Positions 3,997 to 19,731 of a stretch of 20,020 nt of DNA are shown here, piece by piece; position 1 is the first letter of the stretch; each line of letters opens with the position of its first letter. The stretch covers positions 1 to 20,020 of IMG/VR virus record IMGVR_UViG_3300042549_000003. One strand, given 5' to 3'. The notes under the pieces are model-generated. The model worked only from the letters and a program-made list of their open reading frames with translations, ran no database searches and was not told where the DNA came from. Made by a program: the position numbers and the translations under genes. The stretch comes from a virus.

Positions 3997-5985
3997 ATGA
4001 GCGGGATTATGAATCTGCTGCTGGGCGCTGTCCCACAGGTAGTGCCTGACCCGTACTTTGAGTACACGACTCTGCTGCTGCCCGGTAACGGCACGAACGG
4101 AGCGCAGAACAACACGTTCCTCGATAGCAGCACCAACAACTTCACGATCACACGCAACGGCAACACGACGCAGGGTACGTTCTCACCGTTCTCGCAGACG
4201 GGGTGGGGGAACTACTTTGATGGGACGGGTGATTACCTGACGGTTGGAACCAGTACAGCGTTCTCGTTTGGCACAAGCGATTTCACCATTGAGTTTTGGA
4301 CTTATAAAACTTCGTCTGCTAACGGAGTTATTGTAGATGGACGCGTTGCTGCGACGGCAACGCCTTGGAGCATTGCAATCAACGGTTCTGCGTTTCCGTT
4401 GTTTTATGACGGAGCCACGGAACACACTTCGTCAATAGCAGTTACCCTTAACGCATGGAATCATGTTGCTATTGCTCGTTCTTCTGGCACGTTAAAAATA
4501 TTTGTTAACGGCGTACAAGGCTTTTCAAGCACCGTTACGACCAATCTTGACAGAACCGCTGGACTTGTTATTGGCGCAAGAGCCGCAGTATTCGACAATC
4601 TTTATCTTGGATATTTATCTAACTTGCGTATCGTCAAAGGCACGGCTGTCTACACTTCTGCCTTTACGCCTCCGACAACCCCGCTCACCGCAATCACCAA
4701 CACCTCGTTGCTGACCTGTCAGAGCAACCGCTTCATCGACAACAGCACCAACGCCTTTGCCATCACCCGCAACGGTGACGTATCGGTACAGGCTTTCTCG
4801 CCGTTCAACCCCACGGCTGCTTGGTCTGCCTCGACGAATGGCGGCAGCGGGTATTTCGATGGGAGTGGGGATTATTTAACGATTGCTCGAAACACAGCCT
4901 TTATTCCAACAACAGGAGACTTTACTGTTGAGGCATGGGTGTATGTAAGTTCCTTGCAAGACTCAATAATTTGTGGGTTGCAAGAAACCGGGGTAGCAGC
5001 CGATTGGTCTTTTGCTTTGTTTAATGATGGAAGGATTACGCTTTTTATTGGCTCTACAGTAACAAGTTACTTTTCAACGGCAACATATAAAGTCAATCAA
5101 TGGAACCATATAATGGCTTGCCGTTCTGGAAGCACTTTATATCTTGGCGTTAATGGAGCCGCAAACAGTACAACTGCAACAGGAAGCCTTGATAACTCAA
5201 GAACATATCCGCTTGCCATTGGGTCAGATCAAAACGGAGACGAATCCGTATTTTCTGGGTTTATTTCTGGATTGCGCTTCATAAAAGGGTCGGCTGCATA
5301 CGCAAGCACAACCTATACTGTTCCGACGGCACCCCCAACTGCTATCACCAACACCTCGCTCCTGCTGAATTACACCAACGCAGGCATCTACGACGCTACG
5401 TCCAAGAACGATCTGGAGACGGTCGGCAACGCGCAGATCAGCACGACGCAGAGCAAGTTCGGCGGCTCGTCGATGTTGTTTGACGGGACGGGGGATTATT
5501 TAAAGTTCTTGTCAACTGCAAATGTGCAGTTTGGTTCTGGAGACTTTACGGTTGAAGCGTGGATTTACCCATCAACACTTGCAAGCACATACTATGCAAT
5601 AGCCGGGCAGAGAACTGGTGACACTACGGCGACCATTGGCTGGGCCTTGTATATCAACGCTTCAAAAGCCAATTTTGATTTTTCAAATGGCACATCATCA
5701 TTTACTGCGGCAAATTCAACAACTCTTTTGACAAATACTTGGCAACACATTGCCGTGACAAAATCTGGCAACAGCGTAACGGTATATGTCAATGGAAGTG
5801 GCGGTACTGCTGCAACCGTAAGCGGGGCAAACTCTGTGCCGGGGTCTTTAGTGTACGTTGGGTTTTTTTCTGGGTCGATTATTTCTGACTTTAACGGCTA
5901 CATCCAAGACCTTCGCATCACCAAAGGCTACGCCCGTTACACTAGCACCTTCACGCCACCGACTGCGGCGTTCCCGCTTCTGTGA
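3997..5985 (+). CDS. Triple LamG/concanavalin-like domain tail protein
   Basis: A 662-residue protein with three repeats of a laminin-G/concanavalin-like jelly roll, at about residues 70-225, 283-450 and 490-662. Each repeat has YFDG/LFDG-x-GDYL (residues 73, 286, 494), then DFT-[IV]-E-x-W, then W-[NQ]-H-[IV] and a closing LR-[IF]-x-KG-x-A-x-Y strand. LamG domains usually bind carbohydrate or protein, so this is a candidate cell-surface-binding protein. Residues 1-20 are a short hydrophobic lead-in (MSGIMNLLLGAVPQVV) that might be a docking peptide and not a signal peptide. The inter-domain linkers also repeat (STNNFTITRNG, STNAFAITRNG). Linkers are clearly richer in GC than the domain cores, as described in the findings. 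It lies between a fibre gene and a small accessory gene. Confidence 0.88.
   Translation: MSGIMNLLLGAVPQVVPDPYFEYTTLLLPGNGTNGAQNNTFLDSSTNNFTITRNGNTTQGTFSPFSQTGWGNYFDGTGDYLTVGTSTAFSFGTSDFTIEFWTYKTSSANGVIVDGRVAATATPWSIAINGSAFPLFYDGATEHTSSIAVTLNAWNHVAIARSSGTLKIFVNGVQGFSSTVTTNLDRTAGLVIGARAAVFDNLYLGYLSNLRIVKGTAVYTSAFTPPTTPLTAITNTSLLTCQSNRFIDNSTNAFAITRNGDVSVQAFSPFNPTAAWSASTNGGSGYFDGSGDYLTIARNTAFIPTTGDFTVEAWVYVSSLQDSIICGLQETGVAADWSFALFNDGRITLFIGSTVTSYFSTATYKVNQWNHIMACRSGSTLYLGVNGAANSTTATGSLDNSRTYPLAIGSDQNGDESVFSGFISGLRFIKGSAAYASTTYTVPTAPPTAITNTSLLLNYTNAGIYDATSKNDLETVGNAQISTTQSKFGGSSMLFDGTGDYLKFLSTANVQFGSGDFTVEAWIYPSTLASTYYAIAGQRTGDTTATIGWALYINASKANFDFSNGTSSFTAANSTTLLTNTWQHIAVTKSGNSVTVYVNGSGGTAATVSGANSVPGSLVYVGFFSGSIISDFNGYIQDLRITKGYARYTSTFTPPTAAFPLL
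4204..4671 (+). repeat. LamG-like domain repeat 1
   Basis: First of three homologous domain-encoding segments in the 662-residue protein. Landmarks are YFDGTGDYL at residue 73, SDFTIEFW, WNHVAIA and LRIVKGTAVYTS. The boundaries are approximate. Confidence 0.7.
4843..5346 (+). repeat. LamG-like domain repeat 2
   Basis: Second homologous segment. Landmarks are YFDGSGDYL at residue 286, GDFTVEAW, WNHIMAC and LRFIKGSAAYAS. Its core is markedly AT-rich (the line 5041-5100 is about 32% GC by hand count). The boundaries are approximate. Confidence 0.7.
5464..5982 (+). repeat. LamG-like domain repeat 3
   Basis: Third homologous segment. Landmarks are LFDGTGDYL at residue 494, GDFTVEAW, WQHIAVT and LRITKGYARYTS. 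It is closest to repeat 2 around the DFTVEAW motif. The boundaries are approximate. Confidence 0.7.
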
Positions 5986-8843: not shown

Positions 8844-10049
8844 GTGGCTAATACACTTCTTACTATCGACATGATTACGCGGAAGGCGTTGGAGATTCTT
8901 GAAAACAATCTCGTGCTGACCCGTAATGTTAACCGCCAGTACGACGACTCCTATGCCGTCGAAGGCGCCAAGATCGGCACCACGCTGCGTATCCGCTTGC
9001 CGGACCGCGCTCTCGTGACCGACGGTGCTGCCCTTCAGGTGCAGGACGACAACGAGCAGTTCACCACGTTGACGGTTGCTTCGCAGAAGCACATCGGCGT
9101 GAACTTTACGACTGCCGAAATGACCATGCAGTTGGACGACTTTGCCGAGCGCGTGCTGAAGCCGCGTATCAGCCAGTTGGCCGCCAGCATCGACGCCGAC
9201 GTTGCTAACTCGTTCCTGAACATGTTTCAGTCGGTTGGCACCCCCGGCACGACCCCCAGCACGACCGCTGTTCTTCTCGCTGCCCAGCAGAAGTTGAACG
9301 AGTCTGCCGCTGTGATGTCGCCGCGTTATGCCACCGTGAACCCGGCTGCGAACGCCGCGCTCATCGAGGGCATGAAGGGTCTCTTTAACCCGGTCAGCAC
9401 CATCTCGTCGCAGTTCAAGAACGGCATGTTTGGCGAAGGCATCCTTGGGTTCGACGAACTCAACATGTCGCAGTCGATCAAGCAGTTCACGACTGGTAGC
9501 CGCACGGGCGCTCACACCGTCACCACGACTGTCTCGGCTCAAGGTACTTCGACCATTGCCATCACCGGCACTGGCACGCAGACCATCAAGAAAGGCGACG
9601 TGTTCACGATCAACGGCGTGTTTGCTGTTAACCCGCAGACCCGCGAATCGACTGGCTCGCTCCAGCAGTTCGTGGTCACTGAGGACGTGGCGGCTTCGGG
9701 TGGTGCCTACGCGGCTGTGAAGATCAGCCCGGCGATCTACACCTCGTCGGTTGCTCTGGCGACGGTTTCGTCGTTCCCGCAGGCTGGCGACACGATCACG
9801 TTCTTGGGCGGTGCGTCCACGCAGTACCCGCAGAACCTCGTGTACCATCGTGACGCCATCGCGTTTGCCACGGCTGACCTCCTGCTCCCGCAGGGCGTTG
9901 ACATGGCTTCGCGTCAGGTCCACAACGGTGTCTCCATGCGCGTTGTCCGTCAGTACGACATCAACAACGACCGTATGCCGTGCCGTATCGACGTTCTCTA
10001 TGGTTACTCGGTGATCCGCCCGCAAATGGCCGTCCGACTTTGGGGTTAA
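8844..10049 (+). CDS. Major capsid (coat) protein, P22 gp5-like
   Basis: A 401-residue protein (P22 gp5 is 430) that starts at GTG. N-terminal MANTLLTIDMITRKALEILE, the RIRLPDRALV segment near residues 49-58 and the C-terminal NLVYHRDAIAFATADLLLPQ (331-350) with YDINNDRMPCRIDVLYGY (371-388) are what I recall of the P22 coat family, an HK97-fold shell protein. Residues about 222-325, Thr/Gly/Val-rich and beta-like, are placed where P22 gp5 carries its telokin-like insertion domain, which stabilises the subunit and sets capsid size. It follows the scaffold gene and precedes small head proteins. The region is GC-rich (about 57% in one counted line) with strongly biased codons, as expected for a highly expressed gene. 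Confidence 0.92.
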   Translation: MANTLLTIDMITRKALEILENNLVLTRNVNRQYDDSYAVEGAKIGTTLRIRLPDRALVTDGAALQVQDDNEQFTTLTVASQKHIGVNFTTAEMTMQLDDFAERVLKPRISQLAASIDADVANSFLNMFQSVGTPGTTPSTTAVLLAAQQKLNESAAVMSPRYATVNPAANAALIEGMKGLFNPVSTISSQFKNGMFGEGILGFDELNMSQSIKQFTTGSRTGAHTVTTTVSAQGTSTIAITGTGTQTIKKGDVFTINGVFAVNPQTRESTGSLQQFVVTEDVAASGGAYAAVKISPAIYTSSVALATVSSFPQAGDTITFLGGASTQYPQNLVYHRDAIAFATADLLLPQGVDMASRQVHNGVSMRVVRQYDINNDRMPCRIDVLYGYSVIRPQMAVRLWG

Positions 10050-18192: not shown

Positions 18193-19731
18193 ATGGCAAC
18201 TACCGAGCAACTTGAAAACGCCCTTCGTAAGGCAGATGCGGCAGGAAACACTGCGGACGCAAAAGCGTTAGCAGCAGAGTTGCGCCGTATGCGTTCTGAA
18301 GCGCCATCGGAAATTCCGCAGCGCCGAAGTTTTGTCCAAGATGTTGCTGGCGAATTGACTCGCGCAGCCGTTCCTTACGTTGCGGCTACTGGTGTTGGCG
18401 CAGCCTTGGGCGGGCCTTATGGCGCTGTTGCCGCTCCCTTGGCGTTGGCAGCCGGTGACATTTTGGTTGGTGGCGTATATAACCCCGTTTTTAGAATGAT
18501 GGGAGCGCCTACCGCGCCCACTCCATCGGAGTCGTTTCAAAGCCTTGCAGAAAGAGTTGGAATTGGCGCTCGCGGGCAAACTTCAACAGCCCGTACAATC
18601 GGCGCCGTCACGCAAGGCGTCTTAGGTGGCGGTGCTGGCGCATTGTCGGCTCGTGGATTGTCCGCTGCGGCTGAATCGCCTTTTGCTCGAAATGTGCTGC
18701 AACAGATGTCTACTCAGCCACGTATGCAAATGGCTGTGGGCGGTGCCGGTGCTGGCGCACCTCAAGTGGCCCAAGAACTCGGGGTTAAAGACCCGGCTGC
18801 CTTGGCTGCTACTGGCGCTGTCGCCGGTTTGTCTGCTGGCAGGCTTACGTCGCCCAAGCCGCCACCGAGAGCGATTCAGCAAGAGGCGTTGCAAACCCAA
18901 GTGGATGACGCTTACGCCAAGATTGATAAGGCTGGTGTTTCGTTTAAGCCGCAGGCTGTCAGTTCTCTTGCGACTAATGTGCGGGAGGCTCTTGAAAGCA
19001 ATCGCTTTAATGCTGTTCGCCATCCACAACTTGCAACCGCGTTGGCAGAACTTGAGTCTGTTGCAAACGACGCAGTAAAAAGAAACACGCCACTTAGCGT
19101 TAAGGACATAGACGTTCTTCGCGGCGTCATAAAAGGCGCCGCTGGTAGCGCAAAACAGCAAGAAAGCAAACTTGCTATGGATGCCTCCAAGATAATTGAC
19201 GACTTCGTTGACAGTGTTGTTCCCACAAATGTCAGCGCCAACCTGAAAGAAGCCAGAGCGCTTAACACGAAGTTGAGTCGATCTAAAGAAATACAGAAGA
19301 GAATTGACAAGGCCTCTCTTTCGGGAGCCGAGCCTGCTGTTGCGTTACGCAGGGAGTTTAGATCGCTTGCGAATAGCCGTTTAATGAGGACGTTTGAGCC
19401 TGAACAGAAAAACGCTATTAAAGCGCTCGCAAAAGGCAATAAAGTTCAAAACTCCTTGCTTACGTTGGCTAAGTTGGAACCTTCGCTTAATTTGCGCGGA
19501 TTGGCTGCTGGCTCGCTTGCTACCGCGCTTGGAATGACGGTTAACCCGTATGTCGGCGGAGCATTGGCTACCACTGGTATTGCTTCAAGAGCCATATCCA
19601 ATCGTTTGGCGGAGCAGCAGGCCAACCGTATTGCCGCAATGATGCGCGGTGGCCCATACGTTAAAGATTGGCGCGGTCAGCCAATCCCAGAAGCGCTTGT
19701 CCCTGTTGCCGCAACCGCGCTGCCGCAATAA
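18193..19731 (+). CDS. Ejection protein, P22 gp16-position membrane-active protein
   Basis: A 512-residue protein, third of the ejection block, the place of P22 gene 16 (609 residues). Residues 8-33 (NALRKADAAGNTADAKALAA) are a helical hairpin motif common in phage proteins. Hydrophobic Gly/Ala segments lie at about residues 59-98, 136-158, 203-215 and 436-468, each suited to entering a membrane. Between them, residues about 225-420 are a charged helical region (VDDAYAKIDKAGVSFKPQAV; DIDVLRGVIKGAAGSAKQQE). The design, soluble in the virion yet able to insert in the host envelope, is that of an ejection protein forming the DNA passage. No lytic transglycosylase or peptidase motif is visible. 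The assignment is by position, size and composition. Confidence 0.83.
   Translation: MATTEQLENALRKADAAGNTADAKALAAELRRMRSEAPSEIPQRRSFVQDVAGELTRAAVPYVAATGVGAALGGPYGAVAAPLALAAGDILVGGVYNPVFRMMGAPTAPTPSESFQSLAERVGIGARGQTSTARTIGAVTQGVLGGGAGALSARGLSAAAESPFARNVLQQMSTQPRMQMAVGGAGAGAPQVAQELGVKDPAALAATGAVAGLSAGRLTSPKPPPRAIQQEALQTQVDDAYAKIDKAGVSFKPQAVSSLATNVREALESNRFNAVRHPQLATALAELESVANDAVKRNTPLSVKDIDVLRGVIKGAAGSAKQQESKLAMDASKIIDDFVDSVVPTNVSANLKEARALNTKLSRSKEIQKRIDKASLSGAEPAVALRREFRSLANSRLMRTFEPEQKNAIKALAKGNKVQNSLLTLAKLEPSLNLRGLAAGSLATALGMTVNPYVGGALATTGIASRAISNRLAEQQANRIAAMMRGGPYVKDWRGQPIPEALVPVAATALPQ

Follow-up and report, generated by a model that had tools for sequence, protein, structure and literature searches.

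The 20,020-nucleotide stretch of viral DNA analysed here (the window; IMG/VR record IMGVR_UViG_3300042549_000003, positions 1 to 20,020) carries a gene that very probably encodes a hypervariable three-unit LamG adhesin, in which cassettes have been swapped between conserved frames and AT-rich replaced cores have given rise to a GC mosaic. In this gene and its homologues we observe the mosaic, the replacement of cores, position-specific frames, breakpoints at or within the edges, and a difference in composition between one widely shared core family and the other cores. The first strands of each unit (the edge), together with its last strand, would form a conserved, position-specific frame, and the approximately 130 residues between them would form the cassette.

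A profile search with the predicted window protein matched PF13385 (Laminin_G_3) over three stretches (E = 3.9e-53; 180.1 bits against a curated cut-off of 27.6), and an AlphaFold2 model computed from an alignment of 88 homologues reached a mean pLDDT of 90.6 and a pTM of 0.90. The model and its structure matches predict a concanavalin-like jelly-roll beta sandwich, with similarity to AbnA arabinanase entry 5ho2 (VIA-align Z 21.7, 2.4 Å over 192 residues) and to the PTX3 pentraxin domain 7zl1 (VIA-align Z 21.1, 2.5 Å over 184 residues). Within the predicted fold, each unit opens with the strands of the edge (24-28, 50-54 and 58-60, for example), continues with those of the core and is closed by a last strand (204-214). 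The gene sits between genes for a portal-like and a P22-type coat protein and adjoins tail-fibre-like and tail-spike-like genes; some related profiles carry the labels baseplate wedge or virion structural. Because of this placement, a role as a virion adhesin is likely, and the product is probably a hypervariable, virion-borne adhesin for which receptor or glycan binding may be the selected function. The features of the gene, all on the + strand, are as follows.

3997..5985, +: LamG gene, with a predicted 662-aa product of three LamG_3 (concanavalin A-like) units (PF13385 match and AlphaFold2 model).
4060..4215, +: edge 1, the conserved frame made of the first strands of unit 1; GC3 0.88; 52 of 81 related loci align across 4150.
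4216..4608, +: core 1, exchanged cassette beginning with the FDGTGDYL codons; GC3 0.40; 2 of 81 loci align across 4420.
4609..4854, +: last strand of unit 1 and edge 2; edge GC3 0.86; 38 of 81 loci align across 4640 and 42 of 81 across 4740.
4855..5256, +: core 2, exchanged cassette; GC3 0.32; closest relative at 44% aa; none of 81 loci aligns across 5070.
5257..5478, +: last strand of unit 2 and edge 3; edge GC3 0.90; 100% aa in L150 u6; 45 of 81 loci align across 5420.
5479..5889, +: core 3, exchanged cassette; GC3 0.40; closest relative at 38% aa; none of 81 loci aligns across 5690.
5890..5982, +: last strand, conserved, with the C-terminal tail; alignments cross 5930 in 27 of 81 loci.
4216..4240, 4855-4879 and 5479-5503, +: FDGTGDYL codons forming the 5' seam motif; repeat family D3, with identities of 72% and 84% to the reference copy.

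Longer repeats also occur in the edges (56 nt at 77%, 4105/4720; 53 nt at 74%, 4661/5312). Edge 1 is found at 100% aa in L011 and L012, and the nearest cores to core 1 are 61% aa, in L080 u1 and L068 u2; for the core 3 stretch 5500-5886, a search among named phages gave no match at E 1e-5. Two observations concern other genes of the window. For the gene at 18193-19728, the top PHROG match says major head protein, a label that is probably wrong, the coat gene being 8844-10049. The glycine-rich gene at 1441-2328 (PF21722) has a GC3 of 0.38, with a 40-codon minimum of 0.15, between adjacent genes at 0.65-0.69; the window and L001 align at 80% DNA identity up to 1509 and not again until 2586, and this gene may be exchanged too.

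The alternation of GC along the LamG gene had been proposed from hand counts in an earlier note on this sequence, and measured GC lies near the counted values in all four regions: 0.575 at 4681-4800, 0.567 at 5341-5460, 0.404 at 4861-5100 and 0.367 at 5641-5700, with 0.492 for the gene overall. The contrast sharpens at third codon positions (GC3), where 30-codon windows give about 0.7-0.9 for edges and 0.23-0.5 for cores. The standard deviation of 40-codon GC3 windows is 0.188, against 0.076 +- 0.011 in 1000 codon shuffles that preserve the amino acids (z = 10.0; 0 of 1000 as large), and the mosaic is thus upheld by GC, GC3 windows and codon shuffles alike. The same shuffle test, applied to 15 of the 21 listed window genes (the six omitted being shorter ones), found no outlier among the 14 others, the lowest count being 99 of 1000. 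Automatic segmentation of the GC3 of the gene by BIC returned a single break, at 4215/4216, and fell short of the full alternation, for which the evidence comes from the sliding windows and from the profile of the homologues. The note had further held that a motif is kept between linkers at the DNA level; 15 of its 16 bases do recur in the second linker, but AATCACCAACACCTCG is exact only once (4692), the common part being the 15-base motif ATCACCAACACCTCG at 4693 and 5344.

To place the gene among its relatives, we took as viral loci the best 80 matches from each of four scans, three of which were seeded by chosen family members. A first homologue set of 94 matches was reduced to 81 by removing genes under 340 bits and exact duplicates; a larger set of 417 genes was reduced to 353 (289 phage and 64 bacterial) by removing contained or identical unit DNA. 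Pair counts omit units with too few aligned codons.

Repeated replacement of cores between conserved edges, as the note had suggested, is seen directly in these homologues. Among 902 unit pairs whose edges are at least 90% identical at the DNA level, cores are below 55% identity in 690, at 55-70% in 0 and at 70% or more in 212, and such swaps involve 138 of the phage genes, out of 289. Single-linkage clustering of the cores of 972 units at 60% gives 718 families, of which 604 have a single member, and 44 core families are represented in the 46 units of the largest edge cluster. Alignments of window DNA extend across the three edges in 52, 42 and 45 of the 81 related loci and across the core midpoints in 2, 0 and 0; with L001, for instance, identity is 76-91% over the edge segments, and 4305-4608, 4875-5321 and 5504-5892 do not align. 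Around edge 2, DNA similarity returns at 4597-4641 in 46 listed alignments and ends at 4867-4896 in 25 (15-nt bins). Individual pairs show the same structure: L008 and L016 share a 3.2-kb stretch of 99.5% identity that ends at core 3, cannot be aligned in core 3 and are then 79.5% identical, L203 and L215 have different cores 2 and 3 on either side of an almost unchanged edge 3, and conversely L119 and L129 share an identical core 2 within edges that are 57% alike.

The frames are also specific to their position. In three-unit genes, edges have a mean amino acid identity of 0.63-0.70 at the same position against 0.25-0.40 between positions, whereas the corresponding values for cores are 0.29-0.31 and 0.28-0.29. 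Cores and edges show no common history; a shared phylogeny of the two was not seen. The exchange of modules that the note envisaged must be narrowed, since pieces are swapped but each piece is most of a LamG domain rather than a whole module. Three further observations concern the frame and its surroundings. Edges align in 42-53 of the 81 loci and the adjacent upstream and downstream stretches in 2-8, and the frame itself seems mobile between backbones. Edge 1 of L203 and L215 holds several tens of extra residues of another repeat type between conserved segments, so the frame tolerates insertions. A second homologous LamG gene is present on L010, L015, L018, L019, L039, L042 and L075, as a possible local exchange partner.

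Surface-recognition domains often evolve fast, and the cores might have diverged in place, through very rapid evolution, strong positive selection or targeted mutagenesis by a diversity-generating retroelement. We regard this as extremely unlikely. Intermediates are missing, as the empty 55-70% class shows, and paired cores are unrelated along their length, with insertions and deletions, rather than altered by point substitutions at fixed positions. Fifteen pairs combine near-identical cores with strongly differing edges and a change of position, neither a template repeat nor a graded series of cores within one edge lineage was seen, and no reverse transcriptase was found in 25 related records, which are possibly fragments and do not include the window.

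Where the exchanged segments join can be read from pairs that share one part and differ in the other. Among the 327 pairs whose edges are shared and whose cores differ, the similarity of the edge stops at profile columns 58-69 in 315 and clearly resumes in 273, at columns 191-206 in 254 of the latter. Of the 1377 similar-core pairs in three-unit genes, 106 span different positions, as do 19 of the 114 core families with more than one member; among the relocated close pairs, 9 of 15 start at columns 56-64, at the FDG motif. Such narrow limits might point to programmed site-specific recombination of shufflon or invertase type, swapping cassettes at a fixed site. We nevertheless hold it to be very unlikely, because the zone at 58-69 is where homology ends and is expected under homologous recombination too, and because the 5' breakpoints of pairs with shared cores and different edges are spread over columns 15-102 (23 of 49 at 41-50), revealing no fixed exchange site. 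Moreover, serine recombinases (Resolvase) and tyrosine recombinases (Phage_integrase) were each found in 0 of the 25 related records, again possibly fragments and exclusive of the window, and a DNA search of the 20-kb record revealed no silent second copy of the LamG gene.

The breakpoint pattern fits recombination in matching edges for exchange at the same position and use of a short common motif for the shifts, and homologous recombination inside the edges is the likeliest route. Counting against this route, general recombinases are rare in the 25 related records, possibly fragments (RecT in 1, the RecA family in 2). A scan of five replication proteins of DSL-LC04, the nearest named phage, yielded one exonuclease family and no annealing protein. 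The GC-richness of the edges appears dispensable. Swaps make up 82 of 86 pairs at a mean flank GC3 below 0.3 and 345 of 503 above 0.6; they are at least as frequent in AT-rich phages without the contrast and so do not depend on GC-rich edges. The idea of seams at GC-rich edges therefore survives in its first half: changes between shared and unshared sequence lie at or inside the edges, but GC-richness is not needed.

The compositional contrast extends well beyond the window. Along a unit profile on 81 distinct homologous genes (290 units), pooled GC3 stays near 0.55 until the column preceding FDGTGDYL, falls to ~0.32 over the next few codons and rises toward the last strand; the limits of core, edge and flank were fixed after viewing this profile. 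The step at FDGTGDYL recurs in medium- or high-GC phage relatives. When deviations are corrected for amino acids and for the flanking genes of each locus, phage cores lie about 0.2 below their own flank at a flank GC3 of at least 0.5 (85 genes), about 0.1 below at 0.3-0.5 (139 genes) and about level with it below 0.3 (53 genes); phage edges exceed their flank by about 0.1 in all three classes (+0.08 to +0.12). Correspondingly, the slope on flank GC3 in phage genes is 1.07 +- 0.06 for edges and 0.49 +- 0.03 for cores, and edge GC3 exceeds core GC3 in 239 of 260 phage genes.

Heterogeneity within genes follows the same division. Within-gene variance of GC3 between cores is 2.0x the shuffle expectation, compared with 1.2x between edges. 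After loci with a flank GC3 below 0.4 and reading frames of <400 codons were dropped, z>3 heterogeneity was common in phage LamG genes (120 of 145) and less so in other phage genes (20 of 126), in bacterial LamG genes (7 of 36) and in the remaining bacterial genes (21 of 81). The alternation is thus not a general property of LamG genes: it is missing in bacterial LamG genes and in three Rhizobium phage isolates. Bacterial LamG cores at a flank GC3 of at least 0.55 show no dip, with +0.01 to +0.03 in most core bins (31 genes); at 0.3-0.55 they deviate slightly (-0.01 to -0.11; 19 genes), which makes the control imperfect. This control informs cores and within-gene heterogeneity rather than edges, because few edge columns align in the bacterial genes. 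As a separate observation, the LamG gene of Azospirillum sp. TSO22-1 (L322:4065, frame start) is a bacterial exception with a GC3 mosaic z of 9.5, and possibly belongs to a prophage. Tail-fibre-like or repeat-domain genes with frame starts at L040:2336, L144:843, L247:718 and L005:3116 have GC3 z of 5.7-7.1 and may hold swapped parts.

These data bear on whether exchange is needed for the mosaic at all, as codon choice in edge and core could be set by translation, co-translational folding or mRNA structure. Such an account, which we consider quite unlikely, would explain why the step falls at the same profile column across pooled phage genes and why C-ending codons are more used in edges than in their own flanks. 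However, an account of this kind does not sit well with the contrast between the 31 bacterial genes without a dip and the 85 phage genes at about -0.2, replacement is demonstrated independently by the 902 pairs, and cores of the same phage genes behave differently from one another.

This last point emerges from the largest core family, compared after exclusion of loci with under 400 flank codons. Its 71 units with enough flank have a slope on flank GC3 of 1.07 +- 0.13, compared with 0.44 +- 0.02 for the other 787 cores. Where one gene holds both kinds (63 genes), the deviation is -0.05 for the core of the shared family and -0.18 for the rest (Wilcoxon p = 7.6e-9, optimistic like our other p-values because the sequences are related, not independent), and at a flank GC3 above 0.6 (15 genes) the values are -0.01 and -0.32. 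A widely shared core thus agrees in composition with its genome, whereas its neighbours in the same gene are AT-rich, so that AT-richness goes with mobility, not with fold or slot, and the composition mosaic seems to mark mobility rather than fold. Counting against this reading, the shared family deviates as well in the flank class 0.4-0.5 (-0.09).

The offset could alternatively stem from GC-biased gene conversion, with edges recombining often and gaining GC and partnerless cores drifting to AT, which would leave the replacement itself unchanged. We see this as a possible, if somewhat doubtful, origin. It agrees with edges lying above their flank in all three classes and cores below it in two, and with the small offset of widely shared cores, which are able to find partners; by contrast, the variation of core GC3 within genes is easier to reconcile with independent imports than with one common equilibrium.

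Under import, AT-rich donors may be the source of the offset, although the nearest-core comparisons did not favour AT-rich phages as sole donors. Core GC3 depends more on the own flank (beta 0.54) than on the GC3 of the nearest core (beta 0.16), and GC-rich singletons have their nearest core in phages of average composition (0.43 vs population 0.43). An AT-rich donor pool is consequently unproven, and among the cores compared no donor was caught in a recent transfer of an AT-rich core to a GC-rich phage. In favour of donors, the GC3 of cores in one gene varies beyond chance (the 2.0x given above), and core 1, alone among the window cores, has its two nearest cores in AT-rich phages (L080 and L068), although its third nearest lies in a phage with a flank GC3 of 0.57.

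As the multi-unit genes compared, including that of DSL-LC04, are metagenome-assembled (PMC10611076 for the latter), and the multi-unit architecture was not encountered in any cultured isolate, the swaps could in principle be assembler chimeras formed at conserved edges. As a general explanation this is hardly credible. L026 equals L027 and L047 equals L048 across the gene, each pair coming from two different IMG/VR datasets, and the two types differ by a swap of core 2 (edge 0.99, core 0.46); the core combinations of L002, L003 and L004 and those of L120, L121 and L122 likewise recur across datasets. Such recurrence makes chimeras unlikely, though case by case still possible. In addition, edges are merely 85-95% identical in many swap pairs, and chimera formation would not make cores AT-rich relative to edges in every contig (edges have the higher GC3 in 239 of 260 phage genes). 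The three Rhizobium phage isolates carry one unit, with no mosaic (z -0.1, 1.4 and 1.0) and graded divergence.

Taken together, these patterns are best accommodated if single cassettes are exchanged for unrelated ones, which would occur mostly by recombination in the matching edges of a co-infecting relative, at the same position. By a rarer route, a cassette would shift to another position via short FDGTGDYL homology. Replaced cores would retain their AT-rich synonymous composition, while edges and long-shared cores would follow the resident genome, producing the GC mosaic. A broader proposition, which we judge evenly poised between right and wrong, is that freshwater and marine phages trade sub-domain LamG cores from a very large pool (718 families in 972 units), that a constant, position-coded frame takes essentially any of them, and that synonymous composition acts as a residence clock by which exchange history is readable from a single genome. 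The joint inside the domain, with its compositional mark, would give a rule for where such adhesins can be cut and rejoined, would let exchanged cassettes be found in a single genome without relatives, and would offer a test system for the trade of recognition parts between phages of different composition.

Diversification of adhesins by recombination at conserved segments is already known; here it involves sub-domain LamG cassettes and a compositional marker of mobility. T-even phages are said, in work credited to Tetart et al. 1998 and Trojet et al. 2011, to exchange their gp38/gp37 adhesins through conserved motifs. The likeness lies in conserved segments that flank hypervariable ones in a host-recognition protein and act as places of recombination, and the LamG genes have both conserved segments around hypervariable ones and breakpoints within the conserved segments. 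The T-even motifs, however, are reportedly glycine-rich and the fold is not LamG, whereas here the frame consists of the first and last strands of three LamG domains, whole unrelated cores of ~130 residues are swapped, and exchanged cores differ from widely shared ones in a signature of synonymous composition. Diversity-generating retroelements likewise combine a constant frame with a hypervariable ligand-binding part; the LamG genes differ in that whole cassettes are replaced by unrelated sequence of different length, and in the lack of reverse transcriptase in the 25 records, possibly fragments. By sequence family and predicted fold, the window gene belongs with the PF13385 proteins of tailed phages, including cyanophage baseplate-wedge genes, and its mosaic sets it apart from bacterial PF13385 members and the single-unit Rhizobium phage genes.

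A literature search that covered few subscription journals and sources in part returned no paper describing LamG core exchange in phages, which is weak evidence of absence. For Alteromonas phages, PMC10579305 describes whole host-recognition modules that different phage families share. Smug et al. 2023 (PMC10684548), whose main text does not contain the terms concanavalin, laminin or lectin, describe recently emerged domain mosaicism and ongoing fragment shuffling in phage receptor-binding proteins. In both systems the shuffling of adhesion proteins shows as one part of high identity beside others of unrelated sequence. Domain shuffling in phage adhesins is familiar ground, whereas in the LamG genes the cut falls inside the domain, three times per gene, with the same joint in hundreds of genes and a mark in base composition.
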